Below are positions 8,156 to 41,934 of a stretch of DNA of 64,000 nucleotides, in pieces. A program made the translations under genes and the position numbers. Origin of the DNA: Liolophura sinensis (taxonomy: Eukaryota > Mollusca > Polyplacophora > Chitonida > Chitonidae). The notes beneath the pieces were generated by a model, which saw only the letters and a program-made list of their open reading frames with translations, was not told where the DNA came from and did no database searches. Position 1 is the stretch's first letter; the number at the start of each line of letters is the position of its first letter. The DNA lies in the NCBI RefSeq assembly GCF_032854445.1, contig NC_088297.1, forward strand, positions 22,765,127-22,829,126, read 5' to 3'.

Positions 8156-8254
8156 TATGTTTTTGTGTATACGGTACCCGAAAATTCAGGGAACCATATC
8201 TTTTTTCATTCAGCCTTGTTTTCTTAGCTTTGAATTGTTTACTTTATTTGAGAC

Positions 8255-9776: not shown

Positions 9777-9789
9777 TCATCTATAGCTA

Positions 9790-15600: not shown

Positions 15601-16527
15601 TCAGATGTGGAATCATCAACTGTATATGTGGCGTCCAAGTAATTTACATATTTCTCTTTCATATCCATATGTTGTCCATTCATTTGTTTTTTGTTTTGTC
15701 CACCATGACATACTTTTGAAAAATGGTTTAATTTACTGCATATCTGACCTTTAGCTGGACAAGGGTTTCCTTTATGTGGACAGTTTCCATCGCAGTTCCT
15801 ACAGATATTGTTAGATCGGCTGTTTGCGTTCTGTTTCCGGTGGTTGTGTGAGCAAAATTTGTAACTTGGTTTAGCTTTGACTGGCGAATTTCAACACTGT
15901 TTCCGTGTTGTGCACGTCGGTTTGCTACAAGTTGACAGTGTTGCGGGCGTGTTCAGAACTGGTTTCGATGTGCTGGAACTACACATCTTATGTTTCAAAA
16001 GCTCTAACAACGTTGATAATATCATGAAGCTTTATGTTTACATCTCTGAAAAATCTCCGTCTAAGATGAGTAGGCTGACATTTTTCAACGACTTGAACAG
16101 CAATGGTGTCGGAGGCGTCAGTACATTCACATGTACCAGCCAAAGACCTTTGGCGAGTAACAAACTGCGAAATAGACTCACCGGCTTGCTATTGGGCTTG
16201 TTTGAATATGTATCTCTCAGGACGAATGTTTTTCTGTGGTAAGACGTAATTGTCTAGTTCTTCTGCAGCATCGGGAAAAGAGTCACCTGTATTGGATAGT
16301 CCACGAAAAACCTCCTGAGCCGATTCGCCTGCTAAATGAAGAAGTGCTCGCTTTGACGTATTATCAGTCACGCCAATTGCTGTGATGTAGAGTTCGAACT
16401 GGTCGCGTCATTTTTTCGAACGTGTTACCAGGGAAGTTTGATCGACGTCTGTCTGGAACGGGGGTATAGTGGGTAGGTTGAGTAGGCCTGCTATAGCGTA
16501 TGTTGTCCGTTTTAGCTCGTCATCAAA
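12625..16527 (-). mobile_element. Gypsy (K02A2.6-like) internal region, gag-pol, decayed
   Basis: Reading from 16527 downward. The primer-binding region begins TTTGATGACGAG. Gag: ALLHLAGESAQEVFRGL and NYVLPQKNIRPERYIFKQAQ (16190-16370). Nucleocapsid knuckles CRNCDGNCPHKGNPC and CSKLNHFSKVC (15710-15820). Protease around IDSEASVNVV (15450-15480; the expected DSGAS Gly is Glu). RT start RRFPFHLR (15030) and DDALVYGKNDQDN (14700-14745). RNase H region RRYSLTERESFAVVWACE (14150-14220). Integrase core VLKSDNGPPFNARVF (13610-13650). C-terminal tail NGEWLARNSSQLK to RPTYLQAYV (12924-13130). Stops and frame changes split it into many pieces and the 4.2 kb total is short for the group. Inactive. Confidence 0.9.
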
Positions 16528-16683: not shown

Positions 16684-17685
16684 CCAAAACGTCTAAACAA
16701 TTTCAAATATCGCAGTCGACAGCAGTTTAGGTAAAACATGATGAACTCCGCCCAATATCCAGCATACCACAGGTTTTTGAAATAATTCTGGCATCACCCA
16801 AGGCAATGGGCACTTGCGGTCGAAAGCGAGTTAATGGACCTTAACATCATGAATTAGAAAAAAGTGTTCTAACTTCATTTTCGTTCCCAAAATATGAGCT
16901 TCCAACATATCCACGTGTGGTTATGGGTCACTGACTAAAGGCAGTTTGGTAGCAGGTATGATTGATTTTACAGATCGCTGAACATAGGTCACTCGCAAAA
17001 ACAAAAAAAAAACGAACAACAAAAAAAAAACAAGGAGCAGGGAATAAGAACTACTTCTCTTTTAGAGTGATCTCCCTTAACTCTCGTTCAAGCCTGGCAA
17101 TCGTTTATTTTCTACCAAGTTAAAGGATTCAATCTCTTAAATAAAGAATGAAATTTAAGTTTAATAATATTGGATGTAATGGAATTTAATTAACATGTAA
17201 AGAAATTTTGAGCCTGTCGTATGTAAAAGCCCTGTTTTGTCAGCATTGCCTATTCGCATATTGAGTGAGAGCGTTGAGTAGAGAGCTCCAGCACTTTGCG
17301 TTCTTCTTTAAACTTTGAAAAAATCTGTTTCCTGAAAGTGACACCCAAATGTGGAAAACAACCTTTCATTTTTATAAACGTCTGAATTCAGATTGAGTTA
17401 CGAACCAAGGCCTGATCCGATGGAGGCCTCGGTACAAGTGTAGAGTGACTGACACGGACAGGCTTTACCAAGCACCAGACCTTCTGGCTTTCCCGATGCA
17501 ATCGGATTGTCCGTCTTCAGGTAACAGTCTGTGCATAGAGAGAATCAACATAAGATATACTGTCGGCTTTAGAACACAATATACATGTAGCAATAACGTA
17601 CGTACGCACATAGGTATGTATGTAGTCTCTGGTTTTTTCTTCGTACTTAACCTATTTTCTGTCATTTGACGCTAGTAACACAGAA
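16684..17685. other. No gene recognised
   Basis: Non-coding, AT-rich; two poly-A tracts near 17000-17030. Nothing else supported. Confidence 0.5.
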
Positions 17686-17850
17686 CCAAGTGTGGGTTCT
17701 CTACCCTATACCGAGACCAGTCATATGGAAGTTAACGTAGGAAGCTGTTAGCACAGAGCCTACTCTCCCACCTATACTGAGCCGTTAGCGAAGAATCGAG
17801 TGTGAGTTCTCTCCCCTACACTGAGATTAGTCACATGGGAAGCACCATTT
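17686..17850. repeat. Detached copies of the 73 bp repeat
   Basis: Two to three degraded units resembling those at 19160-19925: AACACAGAACCAAGTGTGGG, CTACCCTATACCGAGACCAG and CTCCCCTACACTGAGATTAG. They are separated from the main array by about 1.3 kb. Confidence 0.7.
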
Positions 17851-18675
17851 GTGTAATACCATTGTTGGCTTCACAACATAGTATATTCCCAGCCATAACA
17901 CTGATAAGTTTTACGTCAAAGACAGACACTGGCTTTATAATCTTTTTACAATATATCTTTAATTGCACGTACAGCACTGACCGATCCTAACGATATAGGC
18001 CTACCCTACGCGTATTATTAGCGGCCCATGCGCGAATGTTGGCAGCATCCCGATCATCGCATCTTACGCGGATCTTGATCGGCCTGAGCATGTAGTCTCG
18101 TTTAGACCGCTTTATGGCAGTTTAGCCTTTGTCTACTCGCTAGCTATGAAAATGACACGAAGTATCTCCAGTTTGCTTACCTGTCAAGGCAGGCGTGGTG
18201 ACCATAACAGTATAAGTTAATGGTTTGCCTAACTCTCACTCATTCAAGCCACTTAAGAGATGAGCTAGTCCAAAACATGATCTTCGAGTTGCGCTTTCCC
18301 GTTTCTCGACAAGGTTTATCAGTGTCAGTCGAAATGTAAAATCGTAACCGCATCTAAAGCTGTACTAATATTACTAACTAGCCATTCATGGTGCCTAAAC
18401 TTTCATGTATATTGTTTGTTGTAACTACATACCGTATTTAGGACTTAATAGCGAATAATTTGCGGAAACAGTCAAAAATCTATGTCCGTATTATGATAAA
18501 TACGTGGAATTAGTAACAACGCTGGGAACTAGACCGTTTGTGAATGTTCTATAACAAGCTTGGTGTCGAACAACGCTGCATTTGTTGTAAGTTACATGAG
18601 TTTATGTATGAATAAACTCATCTTTATATGAGTTTATTCACATGTCAGTGTATGTCGTAAACCCCACGCGAATGA

Positions 18676-18750
18676 TAGTCGGATCCTACGCCCATCATAC
18701 GCGAATCCTACGCCCATCATACGCGAATCCTACGCCCATCCTAAGCGGAT
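18676..18750. repeat. Short 22 bp tandem repeat
   Basis: Three and a half copies of a unit close to CCTACGCCCATCATACGCGAAT. No coding potential inferred. Confidence 0.75.
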
Positions 18751-18924
18751 GGTTCGCCCATCTTGGTTGTATGATCGGCGTATGATGTGAACATCTTCCT
18801 GTGATTTTGTCCCTCCCTACCCACATATTCCTACCCATATCCATGTCAGATATATCGCTAGGATCGAGCAGTACTGTAAAAATCAAAAACTAAACTGAAA
18901 TAAAAACACAAGGCGTTCGTTAAT

Positions 18925-19195
18925 TTAGACTTCTTCCAGCGTCAGTGTGCTTAGCCGAACCCGGGGTATAACACCTGATACCCCCACCTCCACCTCGATC
19001 TCCTCCTCATCCCAATCTCCCATATCGTTAGTGCACTGAGTCTTACCCGAGTTGTAATGTCCAAGGTTGGTGCAGATCCCTCTGTACTCCTTCCCCACGA
19101 TGCTCCGTCCTATTACCACGGAGTCTGGCTCGTATTCCAAGCAGCACTCATTATCGGTGCAGTGAGTGCCGTTAGCACAGAACCTAGGGTGGGCT
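18925..19195 (-). CDS. Candidate terminal exon of a cysteine-rich secreted protein
   Basis: A minus-strand frame ending with a stop at 18925. From about residue FCANG it shows C-x5-C-x4-CC, then 20 residues later C-T-x-L-G and a final C (CTNLGHYNSGKTQC), followed by an acidic tail (DWDEEEIEVEVG). The spacing recalls the prokineticin/astakine/colipase cysteine pattern, in which a CTxLG-x-C segment follows the CC pair; that is a resemblance, not an identification. A possible acceptor is CACCCTAG just before GTTCTGTGC (near 19187). Beyond that point the frame is made of the neighbouring 73 bp repeat and is unlikely to be coding. No upstream exon is recognised. Confidence 0.35.
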
Positions 19196-19925
19196 CTCTC
19201 CCCTATACTGAGGCCATTCACCTGGAAATTAACACAGAAAGCCATTAGCACAGAACCTAGGTTCTCTCACCTCTGCCGAGAACAAGCAACTTGGAATTAA
19301 CACAGGAATCTATTAGCACAGAACAGTGCGGACATGCTTCCCTATACTGAGATCAGTCACCGTGGAATTTACACAGAAAACCGGTAGCACAGAAGCAAGT
19401 ATGATCTCTCTCCACTACAATGAGGCCAGTCACCTGGGGAGGAACTCAGGAAGCCATTAGCACTGAATCTAGTGTAGGCTCTCTCCCCTATACTGAGGCC
19501 AGTCACCTTTACAGGACGCCGTTGGCAAGGAACCTAGTGTAGGTTCTTTTTCGTATACTGAGATCAATTATCTGGGTATTAACACAAGGAGACGTTAGCA
19601 AAGAACCTAGTGTGGGTTCCCTGTCCTGTACTGAGGCCAGTCACCTAGGAATTAATACAGGAAGCCATTAGCACAGAACCTAGTGTAGCTTCTCTCCCCT
19701 ATACAGAGACCAGTCACCTCGGAATTAACACAAGGAGACGTTAGCCCACAACCTAGGGTGGGCTCTCTCTCATATACTGGGACCAGTCACCTGGGTATTA
19801 ACACAGGGCGATGTTAGTTCACAATCTAGTGTGGCTTCTCTCCCCTATACCGAGGCCAGTCAACTGGGAATTAACACAAGAAGGCGGTAGCACGGACCCT
19901 AGCGTGGGCTCTCTATTCAGCGGCA
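19160..19925. repeat. 73 bp tandem array next to the Cys-rich exon
   Basis: About ten units close to CCATTAGCACAGAACCTAGT, then GTGGGCTCTCTCCCCTATAC, TGAGGCCAGTCACCTGGGAA and TTAACACAGGAAG. Spacing of the GTTAGCACAGAACC motif is 72-74 bases. On the minus strand each unit contains CTAGGTTCTGTGCTAA, matching the start of the cysteine-rich frame at 18925-19195. Confidence 0.9.
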
Positions 19926-20374
19926 TTTATTCAATTTAATACCAAATTCTAATCCAAGTCAGAAATCCATGAGGTACGATATTTTGTGAGTCATTATAAT
20001 CGCCAATGTGATGGGTATCTTTCATTGATATGAATGTTCAAATCGATGGAAATTGAAGACTTCAGATCTGAGCCAGAAGAGGAGAAAACTCAATTTGTGG
20101 TTAGTACATTGTTCTGCAGTAAAGGGTCACTGTACAAATTTTAAACTTTGAACAAAGCATTTTATTTGTGGTTGTGTTTGAATTTTTAAATTAAGTCTTA
20201 AGACGTGTGATTAATACGGACCCTGGTTAACAGGCTGGAAACTTAAAATGAGACACCAGGTGAAACAGTGAGACACCATTGGTCTTTGGATGCTTTATCG
20301 GTTTGATCATTTTTAAAACAATAACTGAGGCTTTGTTTTATGATAAACAAAAACCAACACCCGCTGTAGGGGGA

Positions 20375-20516
20375 AGGTATTCTAGCAACCTAAGAATGGT
20401 TGTGCGTTTCCCGAGGGCTCTACCCTGTTTCCTCCCACCATAATGCTGTCCGCCGCGGTATAAGTGAAATATTGTTGAGTACGGCGTAAAACACCAATCA
20501 AATAAATAAATTAATA
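20375..20516 (+). mobile_element. SINE family A, 3' half
   Basis: GGTTGTGCGTTTCCCGAGGG, TTTCCTCCCACCATAATGCT, GGTATAAGTGAAATATTGTT, then GTACGGCGTAAAACACCAAT with an AAATA end. Confidence 0.85.
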
Positions 20517-22140
20517 AACAAGCAAAAACCAGCTTTGTATATAATAGACAGTTAATTTACCAAATATTTTATTTCCAGGAAAGTAGATTTGTCTGTGATC
20601 GATTTTAATTGATGACATCAGACTCCAGATTAGACAGACCTGGGTTCATTTCCCTTTTTGTAAAGATGGCTATGTAGAGTTCCTTGCTTTCATAAGTTCT
20701 GCTCTGAGCTTAAGAGGGGAAATTCCGCCGATTTGATCTCGTGTGATATTAGATGAATTTCATTGGACACTGTTTATCTTTCTTCATAATAACCTCGTTC
20801 ACACGGGGAAATGTTCACGTTTAACTCCCCTAGGGCCGGTGGATTACGCCTGTACTCCACATTAAAAAAGCTGATCATCACCGCACGTCATTAAACCTAT
20901 AGGAAGTCAATTAAATTCTGTTTTGCTGCTCTTTTCGTGTGGTGAAGGTGATACTAGTAAAACCATTCTTATGCACCTGGTTTGACTGGAAACGGTTTGT
21001 GTGATGTGAAAAACTTTCAGCATGGTTGATAATGCACACGTTTGAATTTACAGGAATATATTAATTAATACAAAGAAGAAAACAGGGTCCCCTAAACGGA
21101 TATAGTTTTTCAACTTTCTGTTGCAGGTGATTCCTTAGCTTTGAAAGGCGCTGGTATCAAACTGGTAGAAGACTTTGCTTTTTCGCTTTGCCACTAACGC
21201 CGTATACGTTTGGTGGATTCTTTTGATTCAGGGGTTTGGGTAAATCAAACAAACACATAACGGTGGACTAGATACGGCTCACCTTGCTAACAGCTAGAAC
21301 CCCAATAGCAACGATGGAAATCACTACCAACTTCATTCTGGATTCCAGGGATCAACTGTTTACGGACAATCACGTCTACTTTAAAACTCGCTGCTCAGTC
21401 ATCCAAGGTTATCTTTTAACATCGCTCTTTTAACCCCCAGATAATGCCTCACTTATCTTACCCACGTGTTTTGGTGGAAATGTTCACACGCCGGATTTCA
21501 CATTTTCAAATAGCTTATCTGAGCGAAAAATAGCTTCTGTATGCACTGAAGAATAAAAGGTTATCTATGACCGTTTTAATTTCCACTTTATCTACGATTT
21601 GAGAACATACATTTCACAAGATGTGACAAGAAGTAAATGAGTATGCTTTATGATGAACTGGTCATAGCTTGTCAAATTTCACAAATTTTTCGTTTCAAAG
21701 TGTAAGGTTTTGTTTTGACCGTCATATTATTCGTCTTTACATTTATGGTTTACTCTTCAATATTGTAAGTATACCACGACCGTCGAGAATGCGTGGTCAA
21801 AGTCTGATGGAAACCACAAGCTATCCACAGTTTAATATCAAACCACGGGAGGGAAAATCACGGCTGAATTGGGATCAGGCCCCGGTATCACTAAGTAATC
21901 TTAGACTTATGTCAAAACTTCAAATAAATTTAAAATGGTTATTTCTTAGGTAACATAGGTAAAATTGCATGAGTCTGTACAAGTACTCTCCAATGAGATT
22001 ATCCTCATTAAAATGCTGGAACTAATTTCGAAATTTTACTCCATTGATTACTTCACAATTGCTTTTCTACAATGTTTCTTTCATATGAAAAGTTGGATTA
22101 CTTTCAAATATGGTCGAACACCTCCGTTTCCGGAATTTTT
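20517..22140. other. No gene recognised
   Basis: Non-coding; short frames only (for example 21669-21953) without family resemblance. Confidence 0.5.
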
Positions 22141-22142
22141 AT

Positions 22143-22245
22143 TTCTAGCAGGCGTGCGAGTGTGTGCGGAGGTGTTTGGGTGTGTGTGTTGAGGTGGGGT
22201 GGGGTGGTTTGGGAGAGGGGTGGTTGGGGGTTGGGGTTAAGTTGC
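22143..22245 (+). repeat. G/T-rich low-complexity stretch, possible G-quadruplex
   Basis: GTGTGTG-type sequence leading into GGGGTGGGGTGGTTTGGGAG and GGGGGTTGGGG (22195-22237). Four or more runs of at least three G with short loops meet the usual quadruplex pattern on the plus strand. Confidence 0.6.
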
Positions 22246-22379
22246 TTTGTCAGATAAAACGCTGGTTCGGTGCAGCTATACGACCAGCTATACAAACGAG
22301 GGTACGTGATAGAATCACTGCTGCGTCGATTGTGGCTTTAAGTCAGGAAGTTTGAAAAGTAGCTGGCGCTGATCGGTGG

Positions 22380-22470
22380 TTAACACCTGGTACTCTGGTT
22401 TCATCGACCCGTAAACCTCCCCACCTTACGTGTGAAAAACTGAGTATTAAGTAAAACACCAACCAAATGT
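22380..22470 (+). mobile_element. SINE tail relic
   Basis: Diverged tail: GGTTTCATCGACCCGTAAAC and TGAGTATTAAGTAAAACACC followed by AACCAAATG. Confidence 0.45.
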
Positions 22471-22994
22471 ATATATACATTATTTGTAGCTAACACCGAA
22501 ATATAACATTAGAGAACCCCAGCGCTACACTCAGCCGAGTTAAAAGATTCTCAACAAAAATATAAACGCACCAAGCAGATTTTTATATTGTTTTCTCTCA
22601 GTATAAAATACCGTGTTAACTCAAGAATTAGGGTAAGTAGTTATCATCAAATGTGACTTCAATTTCCCACAGATTTTCACATTTTGCTTATGAACCTGAC
22701 AAGTCCCCTAAGGAAATAGCCAAGCCAGTGAGAGCTGGGTTTGAACACGCGCCGGATTTATGGGCAAATCAACTCATCAGAAACAAATACGTTTCGTGCC
22801 AGACAACCAGGGACATAAAGTTAAAACTGTTAACTATTTCAGATGACAAAAAACGGAAATGTTACCAAATGGAACACCGGGTATTCTCAATGAACAGCTT
22901 TATGTATGTAGCCAATCAAATAAACCAGTTTAATTTTCACACAGTTCAAAGACATTCTTTGGCTCCTTGGATTCAAAATAACAATCTTGGGGGT

Positions 22995-23000
22995 TTTATT
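22995..23000 (-). terminator. Candidate polyadenylation signal of the GPx gene
   Basis: AATAAA on the minus strand, about 400 bases past the GPx stop and 240 bases past the SECIS hairpin, a sensible position for the 3' end of that transcript. Confidence 0.4.
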
Positions 23001-23240
23001 TTAGATTTAGATATGTAAATGTATTTAAATTTGACTTCTTTAAATAGCAAGTAAAATATTCTTCAGGCGTTATACATCAAGACAAATAAACTGAATGTAT
23101 GCAAGCTTTACACGAGGTTTAGTGAATGAACACGAAGACGTTTCCTTTATATTTCACAAAGCACAACTTCTAGACGAAAAGCTGAAGGGAATGCACCGCT
23201 GCGACGCTGAATGCACAAAGCCCCCCGGCGGCAACATTCC

Positions 23241-23288
23241 ATCAGGGAAGGTAATCCAGTGTTTCACTGGGTTCTTGCCTTCTCGTCA
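23241..23288 (-). promoter_or_regulatory. SECIS element (form II) of the GPx selenoprotein gene
   Basis: On the minus strand, 110 bases past the GPx stop. A 5' TGAC (23288-23285) faces a 3' TGAT (23244-23241), giving the U.U, G.A, A.G, C.U quartet of a SECIS core. Eleven bases follow (GAGAAGGCAAG), mostly paired with ATTACCTTCCC on the other side. Then comes an unpaired AA, one C, and a perfect six-pair ministem CCAGTG/CACTGG closed by AAA. Eleven bases between quartet and AA is inside the usual 10-13. The AA before an extra ministem is the form II arrangement. Below the quartet AGCGTT can pair with AATGTT. The base before TGA is T instead of the common A. Confidence 0.7.
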
Positions 23289-23398
23289 AACGCTCAGCTC
23301 TTCGCCCAGAAATGATTCTTTAATTTGTAATTCAAAAAAGGAGTTAACAAAATATAGATTATTCATCAAAATTTAAGGTAAGTCCACCACCAGATTGT

Positions 23399-23671
23399 TT
23401 ACGAAACGGTTGGTTCCGTAGAATTTCCCATCACGCTTTCTTCAAGGCAAGATAGCCGATTAACTTCCGGTACAGGGTCTTGCAGCAAAGCTTCGATGTC
23501 CTCCATAATGTCCATAGGGTTAACCCGGAAGAAAATTCGATCGACTGGAAATCCAGCACGATTTATGAGGAATTTTTCAAAATTCCATCTGACGTCACCA
23601 TTCCTTAGGGGCCTATAGTATATCCCAGGTCCGTCTTGCTTGAAAATATCAGTAGTTGGAGGACAATATCC
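23399..23671 (-). CDS. GPx: Glutathione peroxidase exon 3 (C-terminal)
   Basis: Last exon of the selenium glutathione peroxidase on this strand. It opens after TCTTTTTAG in phase 0 and reads GYCPPTTDIF, then IYYRPLRNGDVRWNFEKFLI, the family signature with the catalytic Trp and Asn in the RWNF block. It goes on through FPVDRIFFRVNPMDIMEDIEAL and stops with TAA at 23399-23401 after 90 codons. The CPPT motif at the exon start matches animal GPX3-like enzymes. The 3' UTR holds the SECIS hairpin. No frame damage in this exon. Confidence 0.93.
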   Translation of the reverse strand, partial: GYCPPTTDIFKQDGPGIYYRPLRNGDVRWNFEKFLINRAGFPVDRIFFRVNPMDIMEDIEALLQDPVPEVNRLSCLEESVMGNSTEPTVS

Positions 23672-23907
23672 CTAAAAAGATAAGAAATATACAGATTTAT
23701 TATTCAAATTGTATTTAAAAATATATCATTGTATTTATTTACCATATAAGCAGTGAATAGAAGAAAAAAAATCATAAATACATAATGTAGGTACGTTGGA
23801 TAAGGTGCTGTAAAAAAGTGATATTTTAATTCATTATAACCTAAATTTACCTTAAAGCTCTAACCATCCAGTATTAAAAACGAGAAACAAAAGTTTCCAC
23901 ATGCAAC

Positions 23908-24051
23908 ATGCAACAAAGGGGCGAGGCTGCCATGCAACAAAGGGGCGAGGCTGCCATGCAACAAAGGGGCGAGGCTGCCATGCAACAAAGGGGCGAGGCT
24001 GCCATGCAACAAAGGGGCGAGGCTGCCATGCAACAAAGGGGCGAGGCTGCT
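23908..24051. repeat. 24 bp minisatellite, six perfect units
   Basis: Six copies of ATGCAACAAAGGGGCGAGGC followed by TGCC, identical except near the ends. It lies in GPx intron 2. Because 24 is a multiple of three it leaves frames open on both strands, which explains the 72-92 codon frames here; they are not genes. Confidence 0.95.
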
Positions 24052-24215
24052 ATGCGAAGTGGGCGAAACTGCATAGACTTCATCCTTTCGCATCGCAACT
24101 TCACAGCACTTGGTATTAATGGAGGCATACTGTAACCCTTATAAACCATCATACTAACTTGTTCAAGTTTAATTCACGAGAGGGGCAATGTCAATATGGC
24201 TTGAAATCGTTTTTT

Positions 24216-24368
24216 CTCTTCAGTCCGATAAAACGATACGATAAGTTCGCAAAAAACTAGTTTGAACAGATGATCATTCCTGTGTAGTGTTCTTGGAGAC
24301 ACAGGAATGATCATCTGTTCAAACTAGTTATTTGCGAACTTATCGTATCGTTTTATCGGACTGAAGAG
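24216..24368. repeat. Long near-perfect inverted repeat (70 bp arms)
   Basis: Left arm 24216-24285 and right arm 24299-24368 are reverse complements at 69 of 70 positions, separated by a 13-base spacer. The outer ends are CTCTTCAGTCCGATAAAACG and its complement; the inner ends are TCATTCCTGTGT and its complement. It abuts a family A SINE fragment that starts at 24371. In the GPx primary transcript (intron 2) this would fold into a 70 bp hairpin. Confidence 0.95.
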
Positions 24369-24370
24369 CA

Positions 24371-24504
24371 GCGGATTGCAGTGGGTTTTCTCCCGGGCTC
24401 TCCCCGTTTTTCCTCCGACCATTATGCTGGCCGCCGTCGTGTAAGTGAAATATTCTTCAGTACAGGTGTAAAACATCAGATAAATACAATAAATAAATAA
24501 ATGA
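24371..24504 (+). mobile_element. SINE family A, 3' half
   Basis: GGGTTTTCTCCCGGGCTCTC, CCATTATGCTGGCCGCCGTC, GTGTAAGTGAAATATTCTTC and AGTACAGGTGTAAAACATC, then an AAATA end. It starts right beside the inverted repeat. Confidence 0.85.
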
Positions 24505-24867
24505 AACGAGCTATTTTCAAGCAAAACAAAAATGACGCTGAAGTCACTGATACTGATACCCTCCTGTTTTACTACAGACCACCGTGGAACCTGATGTTGT
24601 AAAACCATTTTACTCGATTGAAGAATGTAAACAAAAAAAATGGAGCTATTTTCTTAGACATTTGTAATGTTCTTTCGTCCGTTATATACTCCATTTTAGT
24701 GTTTTATGTAAGGCCTGAGGGAAGGATTCCCAGTGTAATCGCAAGGCTTGTTGGCTCAGGGATGGGAACTGAACAAAGACTTTGTGTACCCCAGAAATTG
24801 ATTGATTAACAGCCTAAAAACTGCTATCGTGTTTCATGTCGGGAAACGAAAGTGAATTTCACATTAC

Positions 24868-25010
24868 CTTTAGGTAAGTATACAGAGGATGTTCGTTCTT
24901 TCCGTTCACCTCGATCTTTCAAAAAGCGGGAAGTCTGGTACAAAACCGGATCCTGACGTACGTATTTTAAGTTGTTCATGAATTTCTGTCCCGTTAGCGC
25001 CAGGCTCTTG
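24868..25010 (-). CDS. GPx: Glutathione peroxidase exon 2, with a one-base deletion
   Basis: Opens after TCCATTTCAG in phase 0 with QEPGANGTEIHEQLK, then SGSGFVPDFPLFE, the regular GPx order (CNxFGKQEP continues from exon 1). After GAA the frame runs to a TGA within three codons. One base further on, the correct frame continues as IEVNGKNEHPLYTYLK and ends in phase 0 at CTAAAG|GTAATG. The exon is 143 bases; 144 would keep both phases. So one base is missing at GAAAGATC (near 24916-24922), most simply one A. Either a sequencing or assembly slip in an A-run, or a real null allele. Confidence 0.88.
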
Positions 25011-25936
25011 CTGAAATGGAGAAATAAATAAAAATATGTACAACCTTTTTTCTGTTATGTCGCAAAAAAGCAGAAAAAAAAACTCACATCTAAACAATGT
25101 ATTTGGTGACGGAGTTTCGAGTCCAGCAGTCTGTATTGGTAATGAATGTTTATTTTTTATTTATTCGTTTGTAATGGTCAGGGAAGCGCACCATTTAAAA
25201 AATATTACCATTATATGTATACGACAAATCAATTAACAATATAGAGGATACCTATGTTATGCATTTATTAAACTTGAATGGTTTATCCTTGTAGAATCTA
25301 GTAAAATGAGTCATAGTAAAACCTTCAGACTCATGGGTCATTAGGTCATCTCGTGCTACCAGGGTAACACGCATTATGCAAGACGTGACCAACATGTGAT
25401 GTCCAGTAAACACAAAGACGTACATGTGTTGTCCCACATTTGACGTCCCTGTATTTTGATACGTGATGAATAACAACACGTTGACATCAGAGATACGGAA
25501 ACTCGAGACCCTGGGGACTGTCCTTAGAACTTCCAGTTTTGACACTCATGATTGTTAGTGATGATCTGCATTTGCGCAGAACGGCTGGAGAGGTCACTCT
25601 GGTGACATCGCCGTAAACAAACCTGTGGGAATGACCCTTGGCAGATGTAGGCACAGGTGTAGAATTACATTAGAATTAGTATCGCGTATCACAGGGATAA
25701 ACCGCAGATAGTCTTAAGTTCGGAATGGTACACGCCCCCCACCCTTCTTCCCCACCTCAAAACCCACTATTCTGTATGATCACGATACAACAGTATTCCA
25801 AAATAACATTGTACGCAAGTAGGTAAGCCAGCCAGTTTGCAGCCAAAAGGTCTGGGCAGTCCAATTCACTCCACTAACCACACTGATTTGCAATCGTTCA
25901 ATTAAAGTGAAATATTCATTAGTATGGCATTAATTA
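25011..25936. other. Intronic DNA (GPx intron 1), nothing else recognised
   Basis: Between GPx exons 1 and 2, AT-rich, no RNA gene or mobile element recognised before the SINE at 25937. Confidence 0.5.
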
Positions 25937-26158
25937 GGGGGGGGGGGGGGGGGGGCTCCGTGGCTAGCTCGCTAGCGCAGCGTAAGGACCCTGGCTTCCT
26001 CTCCAGTCGTACGTGGGAAGATCTGCCACAACCTGCGGATGGTCGTGGGTTTCCCCCAGGCTCTGTCCGGTTTCCACCCACCATAATGCTGACCGCCGTC
26101 GTACAAGTGTTCTTGAGTACAGCGTAAAACACCAATCAAATAAATAAATAAATAAATA
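25937..26158 (+). mobile_element. SINE family A with expanded G run, internally deleted
   Basis: Starts with 20 G, then CTCCGTGGCTAGCTCGCTAG (A-box head), lacks the B-box segment, resumes at GGCTTCCTCTCCAGTCGTAC, and ends with a full tail (ACAGCGTAAAACACCAATC plus AAATA repeats). GPx intron 1. Confidence 0.9.
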
Positions 26159-26769
26159 TGGTGAGAGGGAAGCATCGACCATTCGCAAGCTGCTGTAAGA
26201 CTTCTCGTAAGACCGGAGATAAAGTGGTAAACATAGAAATACATAGATAGGACACAACATCGCTACGGTTAAGGTTTCGGTTCCAATCTTGAAACAATCT
26301 GAAGCTTTCAAAAATGCCACGACAATTCCAATTACAATCCAAAACTCTTAACATTCATGAATGGGCAAACTAAACACTTGACGGCGTTTGCCACTGTCTA
26401 ACATAGGGTGCATTGGTATCGTGTTCATTAATGTAAATATTTACTTATGCGTTTGTTTTTCAAAATTTTTGTAAATTTTTGATAAAGTTTTAAAAAAAAA
26501 TTCGGTTAGAAATCCATAACTTAGATGAACATATACATATTTAGGAATTTATCATAATGATGAGCTCTTAGGAAACACTTATTGGCAGTTGTAAAGGTTA
26601 GGTCGATGTGTTTATTGTTCAATGAACAATTTCTCAGATGTTCGTTGCGGAAAGCAGGTTCTTCACTGAATAGACATCACTACCACGTTACCACAGTCTC
26701 ATCTTAAAAACTCTCAATTTCACAAAAAACGGCAAATTTCTAATATCTACGACTGCTATTTATTGCTAT

Positions 26770-26825
26770 GCAATAGTCCAATTGGTAATAAGTACGAACA
26801 ACCAATCAAGTAAATAAGTAAATAA
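26770..26825 (+). mobile_element. SINE tail relic
   Basis: AGTACGAACAACCAATCAAG followed by TAAATAAGTAAATAAAT resembles a worn family A tail. No other SINE sequence is attached. Confidence 0.35.
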
Positions 26826-27384
26826 ATCAGTACGAACAATGACCCGAGACGACTGGGAACAGGGCGTTTTGGCAGAACACTGCTGGATAGCACATCTCAA
26901 ATCCAAAAAAAAATTGCATAATTTTAATCTATTAAGCTGAAATTACGACTGTGTATGCAAGCTATTCAAACTATCAGAAAAAATATTTAGAAACTTTAAA
27001 TATATGGTAAAAAACTGATCGATTTATAGAAGAAAACTGGTCAGACATTTTTCAAATCATAGTGTAAAACATTCAATATTCACCACCTGGTATACAGTTA
27101 AACTTTTCTTATTTTCACTGTGCGATTGAATTGATGTATCATATTGTATCTAGTGAAACTCGCTTTAGGCGGTGGTCTACACAAACAAAAGAACAACCTC
27201 GAAACTGGGCAGAGTTGTACAGATAATAGTAGTCCACAGTTTGTCGTTGATCCAGTTATTGAGCTGCTGGGTGTTCTAAAATACCGAGTGCTTCCACATG
27301 GTAGAGGGATGTAAATTTCCACAAGAGTCAGCAAAGAATATCGAAGATGGTTAGTATATTTCTGGTAGTATATATATATCCTAC

Positions 27385-27693
27385 CTTGCCAAACAAGTTA
27401 CAAGGGAATCCTAAGATTTCGAACCCCAAATGGGCGTATTTTTCTTTGAGTGCATTCAGTCCGTGGTACTGGTGAGTGGAGCCTCAGAAGCTAGCCACGT
27501 TGATGATCAAAAGAACCTGGCCTCTAAACCTGTTAAGGGAGACCACTTCCTTGTTGTGTACATCGTACAAGGAAAAGTCGTACACGGTCGTGTTGGTCAA
27601 CTCTGTGTGCTCGCAAGCGTTGTGGTATCGGACCCACGCTTTGGCTGTCATCAACCACGCCAACATGGCGAGGCAGACTGCTTTTGGGTCCAT
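27385..27693 (-). CDS. GPx: Selenocysteine glutathione peroxidase exon 1 (secreted, GPX3-like)
   Basis: Reduces hydroperoxides with glutathione or thioredoxin as electron donor. Chosen start: ATG at 27693-27691 with G at -3 and +4, giving a hydrophobic signal-peptide-like start ([20 protein letters not shown]). The GPx fold follows: [30 protein letters not shown], then in-frame TGA (27486-27484) exactly at the selenocysteine site, then [30 protein letters not shown] and a GGCAAG|GTAGGA donor in phase 0. A SECIS hairpin lies in the 3' UTR. With exons 2 and 3 the protein is about 241 residues, near the 226 of GPX3. Odd: the catalytic Gln of CNQFG is Leu (TTG). The plain reading stops at the TGA, so automatic prediction would miss the gene. 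Confidence 0.92.
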
Positions 27694-27795: not shown

Positions 27796-27804
27796 CTTAT
27801 ATAA
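27796..27804 (-). promoter_or_regulatory. TATA box of the GPx gene
   Basis: TTATATAAG on the minus strand, about 100 bases upstream of the GPx start codon. Transcription would begin near 27770, leaving a short 5' UTR of roughly 75 bases and no need for an upstream exon. Confidence 0.5.
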
Positions 27805-27882
27805 CCTCCTGTGTCAGGCATCGACGTGTCGAATATCAGCAACCCAGGGGAGATCGGGAAAAGGAGACGGTCACGGTGATGC

Positions 27883-27890
27883 TGACGTCA
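27883..27890. promoter_or_regulatory. CRE/ATF-type site upstream of GPx
   Basis: Palindromic TGACGTCA 80 bases upstream of the TATA box. A single eight-base match, so only suggestive of CREB/ATF control. Confidence 0.35.
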
Positions 27891-28014
27891 CAGTATACGG
27901 TGGACTAGACAGGCCAACTAACCGGCTTCATAATAACGGAATGAAAAACTTTAACGTAACCTGTTTATCCATAAAACATCTCTCAAGCATTTATAATAAC
28001 TGTGAGACGCAATC

Positions 28015-28350
28015 TTAAGCAACGTTGCAAGCGATACGATTGAGCAATGTTACCATGGACCGATGCGATTCAGCAATATTGCAGTTGAGCGATGGTGCGA
28101 TGCGATAGAGCAATGCTACACTGGAGCTATTCGATTGAGCGATGCGATTGAGCAATGCTGCATTCGAATGGTGGAGCGATGGAGCAATGAGATTGAGAAT
28201 GTATCCAATGGGGCGATGGATTGACCCAATAGAGCAAAGTTAAAATGGAGCTATGGAAGTGAGTTATGTTGCGATGAAATGGTGGAACTATATAGAGCGA
28301 CAAAGCTATGTGATTGAGTAATGGTACGATGTAGCGATGGAATTATGCAA
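28015..28350. repeat. Degenerate tandem repeat (GCGATTGAGCAATG type)
   Basis: Loose repeats of GCGATGCGATTGAGCAATG and TGGAGCGATGG with irregular spacing. No single period holds throughout. Confidence 0.7.
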
Positions 28351-28975
28351 CGTTAAGGCTAAGGTATTTTTGTTGAAACACGAATGGCTCTTTTCGGTTG
28401 TCATAGTTGCGTAAAATTCTGGATTTTTGAAACATCATCGCGCCACGAATACATGAAACTACAATTTGTGATTGTTAGCCACTTGGTGTCATGGTATACG
28501 AAGATTCCATTCAGTCTGGGTTAAAATCAATTACGCTGATCGGACTGGTGTTCTTATTTGTCAAAAGATCTAAACATCAAGAGTTATTATATGAATATAG
28601 TCCGGTACTATCTGGAAAATATTCTTAAACACGTAATAATGATGTAATTCTGCTTCAGTGCCATATTGTTAAGGGTAACATGTAATCTGCCAGAGATGTT
28701 TAAACAATCTAGGCAAGGAACAATTTACAAATCATCAACAATTAATTCGATGTTACTAAGACTGTAAGTAAAACCGTCATTCATAAGGCTTTCACTAAGT
28801 ATTCATTTATGATCATGTGTAGAAGCTATTAGATATAGGAATAAAAAATCTCTGGCATGTTAGTTAGAAAGCTGGGGAAGTTAATAAACCAGTAATCAGT
28901 TCCCATTTGTATTTATTTTGGCCCATGCCCTTTCCCATCTGCTTAGTCTCTCTGTGAGTAGAATTTGTGAATCAT
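28351..28975. other. No gene recognised
   Basis: AT-rich non-coding DNA. Confidence 0.5.
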
Positions 28976-28979
28976 TTCT

Positions 28980-29115
28980 TATTTATTCATTTATTTGGTT
29001 GGTGTTTTTACGCCGTACTCTGAATACTTCACTCATACGACAGCGTCCAGCTTTATTGTGGAGGAAACCAGGCAGAGCCCTGGGGAAACCTACGACCATC
29101 CGCAGGTTGCAGGCG
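28980..29115 (-). mobile_element. SINE family A, 3' half
   Basis: TTTGGTTGGTGTTTTTACGC, CACTCATACGACAGCGTCCA, GGAAACCAGGCAGAGCCCTG and CCATCCGCAGGTTGCAGG. Confidence 0.85.
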
Positions 29116-29525
29116 AATCATTTTTTTGAGCAGCCTTACTAAATCAGGTACTCAACAAAAGTCTCTTACACACTCGTTAACAGCGTCCTATAAAGTTCAC
29201 TTTCACAAAGCGAAAGGCGTGTATTCACGAATTCTGTGATGTGGTATAGAAAGATTAGCTTCCACATTTCTTTGCCAGATGTTAAAGAAACGTGTATTAT
29301 ATCACTGTCATGTCTTAGTTTTTTATACTTTGTAATAATGGGTCTTTTTAACTTTTTTTACTTGATTTAAAAGTTTAAATTTCTTTTTGTGGACATTGCG
29401 TGTTATTGCGTAGTATTGGAGGATTTGTAACATCTATAAAATGTGTAGACAAAATCTGTTCCATATTTTCCTTCTGCAAAACCATTTAAATTGAATAAAT
29501 GGCATCTATATGTATATGTATGTAT

Positions 29526-29640
29526 CCTTGGGGTTTAACGTCGTACTTAACTCTTTCTCAGTCATATGACGACGAGGAGTCATTAGGTGTGTATACATAT
29601 TCTGAGTCTTCTTGTGCTCCAAATTGCTGGTGCCACTGAA
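29526..29640 (-). mobile_element. SINE family B, 3' part
   Basis: GGGGTTTAACGTCGTACTTA, TTTCTCAGTCATATGACGAC and GGAGTCATTAGGTGTGTATA are the reverse complement of the end of the full copy at 42615-42932. Confidence 0.75.
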
Positions 29641-29712
29641 GTATTAAGGCCGGGCTAGGGTCTTAAGTAAAAGGTCACCACCATTTATCTTCATTGTCTA
29701 ACGTAGATAGGA

Positions 29713-29752
29713 TTTATTTATTTATTTGATTGGTGTTTTACGCCGTACTTCG
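29713..29752 (-). mobile_element. SINE family A tail fragment
   Basis: TTTATTTATTTGATTGGTG followed by TTTTACGCCGTACTTCGAG; only the last 40 bases of the element. Confidence 0.75.
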
Positions 29753-30002
29753 AGCCACGGAAGTCCCAACGTAGGCAGGAAAACTCTCCAAGGCGTTCTC
29801 ACTGAACAACAGGCATTTATTATACAGCACAACATGGGAGTGACCAGACTCTGAGGTCCTCACAGGTCAACCCCCAATCTCTTTTTCCTCCCGCTCTTCT
29901 ACTTGAGAAACAACCATATTTATACTTACAATTGTTTGTTTACTTAACTATTAGTAACAGTTTCTGGTTTCAGGTATTAACTTGTTCTTTAATTACAAAC
30001 AC

Positions 30003-30067
30003 TTTATTTATTTATTTGATTGATGTTTTACGCCGTACTCAAGAATATTTCACTTATACGACGGCTG
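30003..30067 (-). mobile_element. SINE family A tail fragment
   Basis: TTTGATTGATGTTTTACGCC, GTACTCAAGAATATTTCACT and TATACGACGGCTG. Confidence 0.8.
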
Positions 30068-30273
30068 ACTGATTAGTCAAATGCACATATGGAAAGTTAA
30101 TCCCCACATTTAATATACTTAACTATACATGTTAACCAGCTGGACAGAGTTGACTGCCCTGTCTATAGCTTGATTTAACTATTCGTATGTCACATGTCTA
30201 TTATAACTATTTCACATGTACATTACACTTGACAAACTACACGTGTGTACCCAGCTTGTCTGTAACTGGTTTA

Positions 30274-30627
30274 CTAGTAGTGTGCATGAATTATTAGGAT
30301 GATCAGTATATAGCTGGTCATAGTATCATCCCGATACCAGACATGACCCATTATGCCAGCTATTGTCGTTAGGTATGGTAATTGTTTGGGCTTAGGGGTG
30401 TACAAATCTTTGTTAGCAGTTGGTAAAAGAATGTAATGTTTCTGTGTAGGAGCGTCAGATAATTTTAACACACGATTTTCTTGTGATAATCGACAGAAGA
30501 CAACATCAGCGACAACAATAAAATTCTCAGCTGTCCTGGGGTCAACGCCTTTGGTCAATGAAAGTTCAAATCCATCTAATCCTGATCCATCTACTGCCTT
30601 AGATGCATGAGGTTGTCCGTCGCTTTG
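30274..30627 (-). CDS. Unrecognised open frame with coding-like composition
   Basis: Open for 118 codons on the minus strand, from just after a TGA at 30630-30628 to a stop at 30274. The first 90 residues have balanced, soluble-protein-like composition (SGLDGFELSLTKGVDP, FIVVADVVFCRLSQ, YILLPTANKDLYTPKPKQLP), unlike the AT-driven frames around it. No ATG at a sensible start; it could be an exon, an old transposon gene or chance. I recognise no family. A second coding-like stretch (VRSLVAVVEQWLAAVLQPL, near 30730-30800) lies upstream on the same strand and ends at a donor-like CAG|GTAAAG. Confidence 0.3.
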   Translation of the reverse strand, partial: QSDGQPHASKAVDGSGLDGFELSLTKGVDPRTAENFIVVADVVFCRLSQENRVLKLSDAPTQKHYILLPTANKDLYTPKPKQLPYLTTIAGIMGHVWYRDDTMTSYILIILIIHAHY

Positions 30628-30819
30628 TCAGGCTAAGTGCAAGCCACGCCTAAAGGCAACGAGCACTTTGTTGGCGTGACTGGAGATGTTGCTTGTTTAA
30701 CGTCCTTTACCTGCTTTAAACGTTTTTGAGAGAGTTTGGAGAGGCTGTAGGACAGCCGCTAGCCATTGCTCGACAACGGCAACGAGGCTACGTACTGGGC
30801 ACCATTCCAGTTCAGTTCA

Positions 30820-31620
30820 CATCTCGCCTGCAGGCCCGGATGTGCACGTGAGACTCCACTGCACGTCGTACCTTTCAGCCGGTGACGTGAACTCAGACAA
30901 AAATTAAATCGGCATTTCTATGAGTTATCAATCGCAATTTCCATGTAGTATAACTCAAGTCTTATTTATTTTTACCGGTGATACTTCTTTGGAGCTTCTT
31001 TCACCGGCGTAGAGCGAGAGACTGCTCTCGTCACTGCTAATCACAATCCGCTGGTCCGAATGCATGGTGCCTCGTGTCACAGCCGGTATATCGCTCGATT
31101 TGCTTTAAAAATGTATATCTGTGGATTGCGAAAACCGTGCCAATTACTTCACGGGTGCTATCATCTTTCCACGGATGCCCAATTCGTGTCAGACAACCAG
31201 ACAGAAGCGACTTTGTGGCCGGTATGTGAGCGAAAATCATCCAGTCCTAATGCTCCACACGCTTTTCAAGTGTCTAATATAACACCGTTATCTTTCAACA
31301 TATTCGCTATAAAACTACTTTATTTATATGCTTTTCAGGTTTCTAATTAATAGGTGAACACGTAGGGGTAATTATGGAATACGTCATACAATGGCTTCTG
31401 GACGAGGGCAGAGAAGGGTAATGCATGGGTTTGTCAATGCTTTGGTGGGCTTTCAATACCTAATTCCGGCAGCTCTTCACATCACGTCACACAGCCTGGA
31501 TTCGGGCCGACAAGATAGTCAGACAGTCTGACTTTATTGTGTGCTTTTTTTTTCAAAATGGAACTAGTTAGCACCATATTTTGTCTAGGAAACATTTAGT
31601 GTGAAAATTAAGTCTTTGAT
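30820..31620. other. No gene recognised
   Basis: Mixed non-coding DNA; overlapping short frames on both strands near 31040-31350 resemble no family. Confidence 0.45.
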
Positions 31621-36074: not shown

Positions 36075-37246
36075 GATGTCGACTTTACAGCCATAACGTC
36101 ACGTATACAGGCAACATCACGTTACCTAATTCTAAAAAATATTAAAACTGTAATTTTTTTAGGTTATTTCGCAAATATTGTACTGATCAACTAGAAAGTG
36201 TGCTCTTTATGTTTGATTGGTACATCGATAATTGCCTGAATCACTTTGTAATCTGCGTTAAATTTAGATCAAGGTTTTCTGTGCCTTGTTAATCTGTCTT
36301 AATCGTGTTTATTTGAAGTCCCTCTTCATTAAGATTCATTCACATTTTGCGTTGATGATTTGACCTCTACATGGGGCTATAATTGTGAGCTTAACATATA
36401 TGAAGAATGCATTTTCGCTAATCTGGCATAAGTTTTACCAACGAAAGTTCACTCTTATAGAGGTGAATGTGCATTTTGTTTTCACTGTGAATAGCTCTAG
36501 CCTTGGGATATATGACTAAAGTATGCATTCAACTCAACGGGAGACCATGTGTTAGGTATTTTTGAAAAAATAGTTCCTCGTAATGCCTCTACCATGCCAG
36601 TCAAGCTATTTCGGTCAGGATCAAACTATCAGGCTGTTCTAATTTTTGTACAGTTTCCCAGTGACTGAAGAGCAGAACTGCGGTGGCCGTTTATAAAAAC
36701 GACTGTGGAATTCTAGAGTGATCACGTGACATGAGAGGCGAGTAACACTGTTGCGACATTGACGGGAACTTTGCTGTTCATAGGTAAATGTGCGTCAGTG
36801 CGCCACTGGCACCGTGACTGCCACATATGTTGTTTCAGCCGGCTCATGGAATCGGTTTTTGGCCAACGCGTTTATCACCTTTATAAACAACACGTGTGGT
36901 AATCCTCATAGCGCGTGGATATGCAGCCTGCGCACCTTGCTGGGATTAGCTAGCAACATATATATGCTTACACCTTCCGGTATACACTTAGTCAGGTATA
37001 TCCTGATTTATGGTGTGTAATTGAGTCGAAATGCTTCTGCGTATCTCACAGAAAGCAGTTCAAAATGATCAATCATGTAAAGAATACGGCTTGCCGTATT
37101 GATCAGTTAATCTCGTGAAAAAATGGTGCTGAGAACTTAACGTGGATTCAAAAGAACGTCAAGGGCCTTAAACGTAAAACTCTGAGGAAACTGTACACTT
37201 TGAAAAAAATAACTAAGAAACCTGAGTATAACAAGGAAAGCACTGC
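36075..37246. other. No gene recognised
   Basis: Non-coding sequence upstream of the DHHC copy; no clear promoter motif. Confidence 0.5.
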
Positions 37247-37249
37247 GTG

Positions 37250-38255
37250 ATGGCAAACGTTTCACAGTTTCTAACACATGACCACGGTGAGAGCAGAGAG
37301 TTGCATTCTCGTACCCGCGCGAAACCCAAGCCTAACCCCAACACACCGTACTACATGAACTTTCTCTTCCCACCTGGTACCATCTTCACCATTGTCAGCG
37401 TTTGGTACTATGGATTTTTCACAGTGTTTCCTTACGTCTACGATGACCCTAATGCAATTCTGGGACATCGGATTTTCTCCACGTTTATTCTACTTGAAAT
37501 GATGTCGAACTGGCTGTGCATTTGTTTCGTGGACTCGACGTTTGGTCGACCACCGGCATGAAAGGAGGCCGCCCTCGAGGCGGAAGAATCGGGGCGACAG
37601 AGGGCGCTGTGACACATCTGGAGGAACCCCTACAGCAAAATTATTGTCCACAGAAATGGCAGTGTCAATAAACCCATTGGAGGAAAATCCAGCGCACGGC
37701 GACTAAGTATTACCGCACATCGGACGGCTCAGTGATAGTTTCCATGCCGAACAGTTTATCCTGTACGGGAGAAAAATCTCCGTCTCGCACCACTTATCTC
37801 TACTTCTCCTGGAAACCTTGTCTGGTGTGCGAGCACGTCAGGCCGCCTCGTTGTCACCACTGCGCCTTATGCCAAAAATGCGGTCTGAAACGTGACCATC
37901 ACTGCTACTTCGCTGTGAGCTTGCGTCGGCTTGTATAATCAGCGCCATTTTATCGTGTTTACCTTCTGGGCTTCCGTGGCTACGGTGTACGCCTTTTGCC
38001 ACTCATTGCCGTATATTTACTTACGAGTTTTTGGAGCAGACGTCGTACGTCGACCTCTTCCTTCCACTGACATTGGCACGGTTTATACTAGGGTACACCG
38101 ACTTCAGGGCCGTCGTTCTCATGACGATGGAATGGTCGCTCATGTGCTTTGTTTTTTTCAGCGTTGTCTTTTTCGTCGAACAAATGATCCTGGTCTCGCG
38201 AAGTCTCACGACGTTCGAGAACGAAAACAAGATGGAAGCTGGAGGACAGTCGTGA
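37250..38255 (+). pseudogene. DHHC palmitoyltransferase, intronless and frame-broken
   Basis: Protein S-acyltransferase of the four-helix DHHC family, which palmitoylates membrane proteins. ATG at 37250. Helix 1 region LFPPGTIFTIVSVWYYGFF, helix 2 around FILLEMMSNWLCICF, then a stop at 37559-37561. The cysteine-rich domain (37795-37915) is complete: [31 protein letters not shown]. At about 37920 one extra base shifts the frame; the next frame reads [13 protein letters not shown], as the family should, and helix 3. A further shift near 38028 leads to helix 4 (WSLMCFVFFSVVFFVEQMIL) and a stop at 38253-38255. No introns separate these parts although such genes normally have them, so a processed retrocopy is likely. 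Alternatively a real gene with assembly indels. Confidence 0.75.
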
Positions 38256-41740: not shown

Positions 41741-41749
41741 GTATGATGC

Positions 41750-41870: not shown

Positions 41871-41934
41871 ATTTACAAGAGGGTATTAAGATATTATATC
41901 TCCAAATGTTGTTCTTTATGTTGACATTAACAGA

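Follow-up and report, generated by a model that had tools for sequence, protein, structure and literature searches.

The minus strand of a 64-kb window of Liolophura sinensis DNA (the whole stretch analysed) carries a three-exon glutathione peroxidase (GPx) locus, running from 27693 down to 23399. It belongs to a known kind, the GPX3-type selenium glutathione peroxidases, and has an in-frame UGA at the catalytic position. The reading frame of its second exon is broken. The locus is most likely an ordinary animal GPX3-type selenocysteine (Sec) GPx whose exon 2 breaks are assembly indel errors, a reading to which we give about an even chance. That it is instead a paralogue that lost its function recently is only slightly less likely.

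A GPX3-type locus with UGA at the selenocysteine position

The features of the locus are listed in Table 1. Exon 1 is open in frame 0 throughout, with the single exception of the TGA at 27486-27484, and its 3' border is a GT donor in phase 0. Exon 3 starts in phase 0 and continues uninterrupted in frame 0 to the TAA stop at 23401-23399. Both introns are bordered by GT/AG splice sites, in agreement with the junctions proposed in an earlier note (27385/25010 and 24868/23671). That note had also placed the UGA at the GPx selenocysteine site, and this assignment holds, as the homologues have Sec or Cys there. The residue opposite the UGA in five PDB alignments is Gly, Cys, Cys, Gly, and X.

Table 1. 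Features of the Liolophura sinensis GPX3-type locus (window coordinates)
Feature	Position	Strand	Description
Candidate TATA box TATATAAG	27796..27803	-	~100 nt upstream of ATG; direct reading
Exon 1	27385..27693	-	309 nt; carries the start and Sec codons, a hydrophobic N-terminus, and the N-terminal half of the GPx fold
In-frame TGA	27484..27486	-	Catalytic Sec/Cys position of GPx; directly after NVASF, before a segment of 12 residues
Exon 2	24868..25010	-	143 nt; broken reading frame between intact AG/GT borders
Exon 3	23399..23671	-	Active-site motif RWNFEKFL with Trp and Asn of the tetrad; TAA stop
SECIS-like hairpin, form II layout	23241..23288	-	UGAC/UGAU, 8/11 helix II pairs, AA, 6-bp ministem
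AATAAA, candidate poly(A) signal	22995..23000	-	~400 nt past stop; direct reading

When the pieces were joined by X at the TGA and at the frame break, the top PDB match was human GPX3 (2r37), with E = 2.7e-46 over residues 35-212. Human GPX3 came first among 41 distinct sequences matching at E <= 0.001, followed by GPX6 and GPX5. Exon 3 aligned to GPX3, GPX6, GPX5, and GPX1 in this search, and exon 1 searched alone matched 2i3y best (E 5.2e-15). The joined pieces scored 112.2 bits against PF00255 (curated cut-off 27; E 1.2e-32), and exon 1 alone scored 76.9 bits (E 1.1e-21). Searched by themselves, neither exon 3 (at E <= 1) nor the exon 2 piece matched a Pfam family.

Read in a frame-aware manner, exon 2 is the best conserved exon, with 58-64% identity to human GPX1/3/5/6. 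Residues 35-103 of exon 1 are 41-47% identical to the same four proteins, and the first 59 exon 3 codons, compared with GPX3/5/6 only, show 34-42%. Exon 2 keeps 20/24 of the residues invariant in GPX1/3/5/6; exon 3 keeps 17/33 of those invariant in GPX3/5/6, and exon 1 keeps 20/26. When viral contigs were scanned once with each of these two exons, exon 1 picked up 9 pattern stretches and exon 3 picked up 7, and none was confirmed as a relative. In a set of genome contigs that holds no animal genomes, 1 of 48 stretches was a bacterial GPx, from Paenibacillus (46% over residues 34-103); this match is uninformative on exon 2.

In a working form of the gene, the UGA would be decoded as selenocysteine via SBP2/eEFSec acting through a 3' UTR SECIS. 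The product would be a secreted enzyme that reduces peroxide with glutathione or a similar thiol.

Exon 2 has no continuous reading frame

According to the earlier note, all exon phases agree. We found that they do not: the length of exon 2 leaves a remainder (143 mod 3 = 2), and no frame reads end to end as GPx. Frame 0 stops at a TGA after ...LFERSR, and VNGKNEHPLYTYLK is readable in frame 2 only. Therefore, no full-length enzyme can come from the sequence as written. Because the frame flanking the UGA does not stay open as far as the true stop codon, we class this as a locus of the selenoprotein kind and not as a working gene. The family and the Sec position that had been proposed for a selenoprotein GPx gene stand, but an intact, translatable gene does not, given the broken exon 2 and a changed residue in the catalytic tetrad.

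We aligned exon 2 in a frame-aware manner with segments of human GPX1, GPX3, GPX5, and GPX6. At least one frame change is necessary in this exon, and three are placed at ordinary penalties, for a net -1. Shift penalties of -8 and -12 gave three changes (+1, -1, -1), and the breaks lie near 24980-24964, 24955-24953, and 24914-24912. At penalties from -16 to -30, one change was still needed with GPX3, GPX5, and GPX6; with GPX1, three remained at -16 and one from -20. Residues 35-103 of exon 1 and the first 59 codons of exon 3 needed zero shifts against GPX3 at -8 and -12. When the joined pieces were searched against the entire window by tblastn, the three known exons came back, exon 2 being split over two frames into two pieces, and all other matches had E >= 1. 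This search found no second, intact exon 2 in the window.

The catalytic tetrad lacks Gln

The GPx tetrad of Sec/Cys, Gln, Trp, and Asn is not complete. UGA, Trp, and Asn are present, but Gln is replaced by Leu (CNLFGK), whereas 5/5 PDB alignments compared have Gln at this site. Family members with another residue at the Gln site have been published, according to the available part of PMC7409322. Therefore, the change to Leu bears on activity more than on descent. The accessible portion of PMC8614756 holds nothing on the tetrad. A literature search for the Leu-for-Gln motif (FPCNLF / PCNLFG) gave no match, which carries little weight since such strings are seldom printed. We think it improbable that the locus represents an expressed lophotrochozoan Sec-GPx3 branch with a U/L/W/N tetrad instead of U/Q/W/N and with U before the UGA core of its SECIS. 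In such a branch, the peroxidase cycle would be changed or the enzyme would serve a different redox function.

A candidate SECIS in the 3' UTR

The hairpin at 23288-23241 lies 110 nt past the stop, with UGAC...UGAU, AA, and a perfect CCAGTG/CACTGG ministem, as the earlier note had reported. However, its "11-base helix" has 8/11 standard pairs. By direct reading, the non-pairs are two A.C and one G.A, and the base preceding the UGA core is U instead of A/G. The hairpin shares the UGAN/KGAW core, the AA, the ministem, and the 3' UTR placement with form II eukaryotic SECIS elements; it differs from them in having just 8/11 helix II pairs and U before the core. In the available text of PMC3473315, that base is A in almost all invertebrate elements and G in 12/21 sponge elements. 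We consider the hairpin a plausible but sub-standard SECIS.

We searched for similar hairpins with home-made SECIS descriptors, which were tuned after the candidate was known and used without a positive-control set of known SECIS elements. The candidate does better than chance: among dinucleotide shuffles of the 500-nt 3' UTR, 53/4000 equalled or bettered the helix score, and 8/4000 did so when the 6-bp ministem was also required. Both strands of the real window held 4 such matches versus 1.4 in window shuffles, and 3 versus 0.1 with the ministem. Because the real window exceeds its shuffles, the shuffles understate the chance of such a hairpin. By simple proportion, the window background is ~0.016 per 500 nt of one strand, or ~0.012 with the ministem.

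The 48-nt hairpin piece alone folds into the expected helix and ministem (z -3.1). Within 116 nt of surrounding sequence, the SECIS fold (-24.5) is less favorable than the free fold (-28.9), and this stretch shows no excess stability over shuffles (z -0.27). An energy-based scan of both window strands ranked the hairpin 4/15, and it drops out when at least 6 or 7 helix pairs are required. A stricter scan of the minus strand from 17000 to 23398 found no better SECIS downstream; its single candidate was weak (-4.9 at 21922). Rfam contains SECIS families, and none was among the matches at E <= 10 in a scan run without a SECIS positive control.

These results leave some room for the hairpin not being a SECIS, with the true element elsewhere or lost. 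We lean against this, although the Rfam matches, the rank and loss of the hairpin in the energy scan, the competing fold of the 116-nt context, and the abundance of such matches in the window point that way. The correct strand and place, the fold of the 48-nt piece, the few UTR shuffles that do as well, and the weakness of the downstream alternative argue for the hairpin.

Origin of the frame break

The retention of 20/24 invariant residues in exon 2 despite three frame changes counts for assembly indels over neutral decay. Under neutral decay, three indels would be expected to come with 15-24 substitutions, a ratio taken from general knowledge. The probability that all 20 kept residues are spared is then 0.003-0.0001. 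If the middle block of exon 2 is instead read in frame 0, a single frame change suffices and the argument from too many indels weakens; with 5 substitutions, the probability is 0.13. In favor of an assembly error, exons 1 and 3 need no shift and are open but for the UGA. The low residue retention of exon 3, and the failure of exon 3 and the exon 2 piece to match Pfam alone, count against it.

A second gene in the window, of the DHHC type, likewise changes frame inside its domain, which also favors assembly error. Its match to PF01529 passes to the next frame between consecutive residues 637/638, with positions 5-38 before the change and 39-74 after it. The second piece is below the cut-off (19.5 versus 28.7 bits), and this DHHC gene could itself be a pseudogene. 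It is unlikely that the assembly is rich in errors throughout, because exons 1 and 3 (582 nt) and a 374-codon ORF at 8652-9776 are unbroken. This ORF is weakly MFS-like (21 bits, cut-off 33.4), and its region gave no Pfam family when scanned with stops as X. Parts of the window were scanned with Pfam, each in the three frames of a single strand; no family reached E <= 0.1 in 17001-20000 minus, 28001-31000 minus, 5001-10000 plus, and 39001-43000 plus.

There is a substantial, if less than even, chance that the locus is a young unprocessed pseudogene, a paralogue in an expanded GPx3 family, with its frame lost recently and its introns, its UGA, and a fading SECIS still in place. The lack of an end-to-end frame in exon 2, the two A.C mismatches in the SECIS helix and the U before its core, the Leu at the tetrad Gln site, and the many altered invariant residues of exon 3 all suit a pseudogene, although the weak SECIS and the Leu fit divergence as well as decay. 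Precedents are available. Frameshifts or other disabling mutations are present in most selenoprotein pseudogenes of mammals, and one derived from GPx1 retains its active site and SECIS, as described in the accessible part of PMC3316567. Two scallops have an expanded GPx3 sub-family, according to the available text of PMC7824116. However, the breaks sit in the most conserved exon (chance ~0.008 for three placed uniformly over 725 nt), and the TATA-like box, splice sites, start, stop, and poly(A) signal are all there.

Skipping of exon 2 would also confine the breaks to that exon, leaving it free to decay. Because the end of exon 1 and the start of exon 3 are both in phase 0, a UGA-containing exon 1+3 mRNA stays in frame. 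Such an mRNA would lose ~48 well-conserved residues, and the invariant residues and both splice sites retained by exon 2 are unexpected for a dispensable exon; we regard skipping as very unlikely. Programmed ribosomal frameshifting across real frame changes has the well-conserved flanking frames as its sole support. We rejected it as having next to no chance, since up to three shifts in both directions would be needed within 143 nt and no slippery heptamer was seen by eye at the last break. To our knowledge, no GPx uses programmed frameshifting.

Whether alive or dead, the gene leaves knowledge of selenoproteins unchanged. A real gene would add a Sec-GPx whose tetrad departs from the standard; a dead one would be a decaying Sec-GPx3 copy with a SECIS still recognizable. 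Loci of this kind are lost by annotation pipelines. The earlier note had attributed such a loss to predictors that treat TGA as a stop; the gene could be lost in that way, but here the exon 2 frame break is a second cause beside the recoded UGA.

Comparison with known glutathione peroxidases and pseudogenes

The locus and human GPX3 are alike in the Sec position and in the RWNFEKFL motif, and over the aligned stretches they are 44% identical in exon 1, 64% in exon 2, and 34% in exon 3. They differ in that human GPX3 has the tetrad Gln and an unbroken frame. The scallop GPx3 sub-family, set beside the chiton locus by its description in the available part of PMC7824116, is likewise of the selenium GPx3 type. 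Signature motif 2, L(G/A)(F/V)PC(N/D)QF, is described there as highly conserved overall and missing in some scallop GPx3 members, and it is altered in the chiton locus. The human GPX1 pseudogene, as far as the accessible text of PMC3316567 describes it, is a disabled copy with active site and SECIS kept, as here. However, that copy is disabled by a premature stop, whereas the chiton locus has a frame break and keeps its introns, and therefore is no retrocopy.

The GPx locus and its putative selenocysteine codon

We searched known proteins with a 241-residue read of three minus-strand exons, with an X at the UGA and an X at a frame break. At E ≤ 0.001 it matched 41 distinct sequences in the PDB. 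The top match was human GPX3 (2r37; 2.7e-46), followed by GPX6 and GPX5; the order GPX3, GPX6, GPX5, GPX1 is a score ranking and not a tree. The read also reached PF00255 with 112.2 bits (cut-off 27), and exon 1 alone was above this cut-off as well (76.9 bits). Neither exon 3 alone nor the 33-residue exon 2 piece alone matched a Pfam family at E ≤ 1. In five PDB alignments of the read, the residues opposite the TGA were Gly, Cys, Cys, Gly, and X, and the Gly entries are presumably Sec mutants. Judged by these alignments, the TGA in exon 1 is the known Sec/Cys position of GPx. The earlier note was thus right to place an in-frame TGA at the Sec site of a GPx, and the comparison with the GPX3 family that it proposed agrees.

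Features of the GPx locus and one further reading frame (window coordinates)
Feature	Position	Strand	Remarks
TATA-like box	27803-27796	minus	direct reading; upstream flank of GPx gene
Exon 1	27693-27385	minus	one in-frame TGA at codon 70; GT donor after
Exon 2	25010-24868	minus	143 nt; AG before, GT after
Exon 3	23671-23399	minus	AG before; TAA at end
SECIS candidate hairpin	23288-23241	minus	3' UTR, 110 nt past stop
AATAAA	23000-22995	minus	direct reading; downstream flank of GPx gene
374-codon ORF	8652-9776	plus	weakly MFS-like; Pfam score of 21 bits (E 1.8e-4) lies below the 33.4-bit threshold

The tetrad Trp and Asn are present in RWNFEKFL, and the tetrad Gln is replaced by Leu in CNLFGK. 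Some mollusc GPx3-like proteins probably have Leu at this position too. A passage of PMC7409322 gives the tetrad as Sec/Cys, Gln, Trp, and Asn, lists Ser, Glu, and Gly as exceptions in characterised GPx, and records ciliate GPx with a partial tetrad or none. Signature motif 2, which contains the tetrad Gln, is described in part of PMC7824116 as highly conserved in scallops and missing from some scallop GPx3 members; here its Gln is changed to Leu. Because of these scallop members, the change may be a trait of a mollusc branch and not a lesion.

At 27880-27890 (minus strand), which puts it roughly 80 nt ahead of the TATA-like box, we noted post hoc TGACGTCAGCA, a single copy within the window (0.01 expected). 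We take it to be similar to a CRE-type Maf/Nrf2 site, which would fit an oxidative-stress gene. Intron 2 holds a near-perfect palindrome (24216-24368), which is likely a small foldback element: across 156 aligned columns it is 91% identical to its reverse complement. The same intron has a young minisatellite at 23907-24055, in which a 24-base unit is repeated about six times (99% match).

The frame break in exon 2

The earlier note held that all exon phases agree. This fails in exon 2, a 143-nt exon whose GPx peptides are spread over three frames. In frame 0, QEPGANGTEIHEQLKIRTSGSGFVPDFPLFERSR runs into a stop, frame 2 holds VNGKNEHPLYTYLK, and frame 1 holds LKYVR, which is common to all five aligned PDB sequences. 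When exon 2 was aligned, with frame shifts permitted, to the segments of all four human paralogues (GPX1, GPX3, GPX5, and GPX6), there were three frame changes (+1, -1, -1) at shift penalties of -8 and -12, and one at -16 and beyond (for GPX1, from -20). Therefore, a minimum of one break is certain; at ordinary penalties, three is the better reading. By the same method, residues 35 to 103 of exon 1 and codons 1 to 59 of exon 3 gave zero frame changes against GPX3 at -8 and -12. Other splice sites are no remedy, because the break sits mid-exon, beyond their reach. No alternative exon 2 was found anywhere in the window.

Assembly error or young pseudogene

Exon 2 is the best conserved of the three exons. 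Its frame-aware identity to GPX1/3/5/6 is 58 to 64%, flattered by taking the best frame, versus 41 to 47% for exon 1, and 34 to 42% to GPX3/5/6 for exon 3. Of the 24 residues that do not vary among the four paralogues, exon 2 retains 20; the corresponding figures are 20 of 26 for exon 1 and, with invariance judged over three paralogues only, 17 of 33 for exon 3. We give an indel error in the assembly about an even chance. Neutral decay giving three indels should bring many substitutions as well. Given 15 to 24 random substitutions (the substitution-to-indel ratio behind this estimate is a general one), all 20 kept residues would be spared with a probability of 0.003 to 0.0001, which counts against a young pseudogene. 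With 5 substitutions the probability is 0.13, so a very recent loss is possible, and a young pseudogene is a serious contender at somewhat under an even chance.

A DHHC palmitoyltransferase-like gene at 37232-38255 (plus strand) has its DHHC domain split over two frames at consecutive residues. PF01529 positions 5 to 38 match residues 604 to 637 in the first frame (35.7 bits, above the cut-off), and positions 39 to 74 match residues 638 to 673 in the next (19.5 bits, below it); an upstream open frame (37232-37561) is closed by a stop. This frame change resembles that of exon 2 and favors assembly indels, although the DHHC gene could be a pseudogene too. Assembly errors would also have to be patchy, because GPx exons 1 and 3 and the 374-codon ORF are clean. 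A separate scan of the ORF region found no Pfam family.

The SECIS candidate

The form II SECIS of the earlier note stands in its UGAC/UGAU core, the AA 11 nt beyond the core, and the perfect 6-bp ministem; however, its 11-base helix has only 8 of 11 pairs. The core matches the UGAN/KGAW pattern in a passage of PMC7409322. The base preceding it is U, whereas an excerpt of PMC3473315 gives A in almost all invertebrate elements and G in 12 of 21 sponge ones. From the exon coordinates, the hairpin lies 625 nt from the UGA in the spliced message, inside the mammalian range of 207-5207 given in part of PMC3316567.

The descriptor gave 392 hits over both strands, and the hairpin tied for third among them. 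When the 500-nt 3' UTR was shuffled 4000 times with its dinucleotides kept, 53 shuffles scored at least as well; with the ministem also required, 8 did. The real window has 4 such hits versus 1.4 in its shuffles (with the ministem, 3 versus 0.1). Because the window is richer in SECIS-like hits than its shuffles, a fair chance figure for such a hit in the GPx 3' UTR is nearer 0.01-0.02, with or without the ministem. The isolated 48-nt piece adopts the SECIS helix and ministem (z = -3.1). In its 116-nt context, stability does not exceed that of shuffled sequence (z = -0.27), and a different fold is favored by 4.4 kcal/mol when the stabilising non-standard core pairs are left out of account. An energy-based scan ranked the hairpin 4th of 15 and dropped it once six helix pairs were demanded. 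Rfam has SECIS families, and none was among the matches up to E ≤ 10. The hairpin is probably a SECIS, but a sub-standard one.

Other features of the window

Tandem repeats of 57/58 and 171 bases abound in a region of about 10 kb (46941-56832), in arrays separated by gaps. The region has a GC skew near -0.3 across most of its length, a higher-order repeat of roughly 2 kb (87% identity), and long open frames on both strands. Retroelement remains at 13501-16200 (minus) and 288-1319 (plus) are marked by RNase H domain matches, which fall in two frames, and by a reverse transcriptase match below threshold. Within 61001-64000 (minus), two stretches match an immunoglobulin domain, each in its own frame; one scores above the cut-off and the other below it. 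A 42-base tandem array (61840-62514) adjoins them.

Comparison with known GPx genes

Poor public-database annotation of such genes is described for vertebrates in a passage of PMC12822975. We class our finding as a locus, not as a working selenoprotein gene. It adds to a known kind of gene, because GPx are already described in mollusks: 4 in the Lottia limpet genome in an excerpt of one selenoproteome survey (PMC3473315), and five GPx3 genes in each of two scallops in part of PMC7824116.
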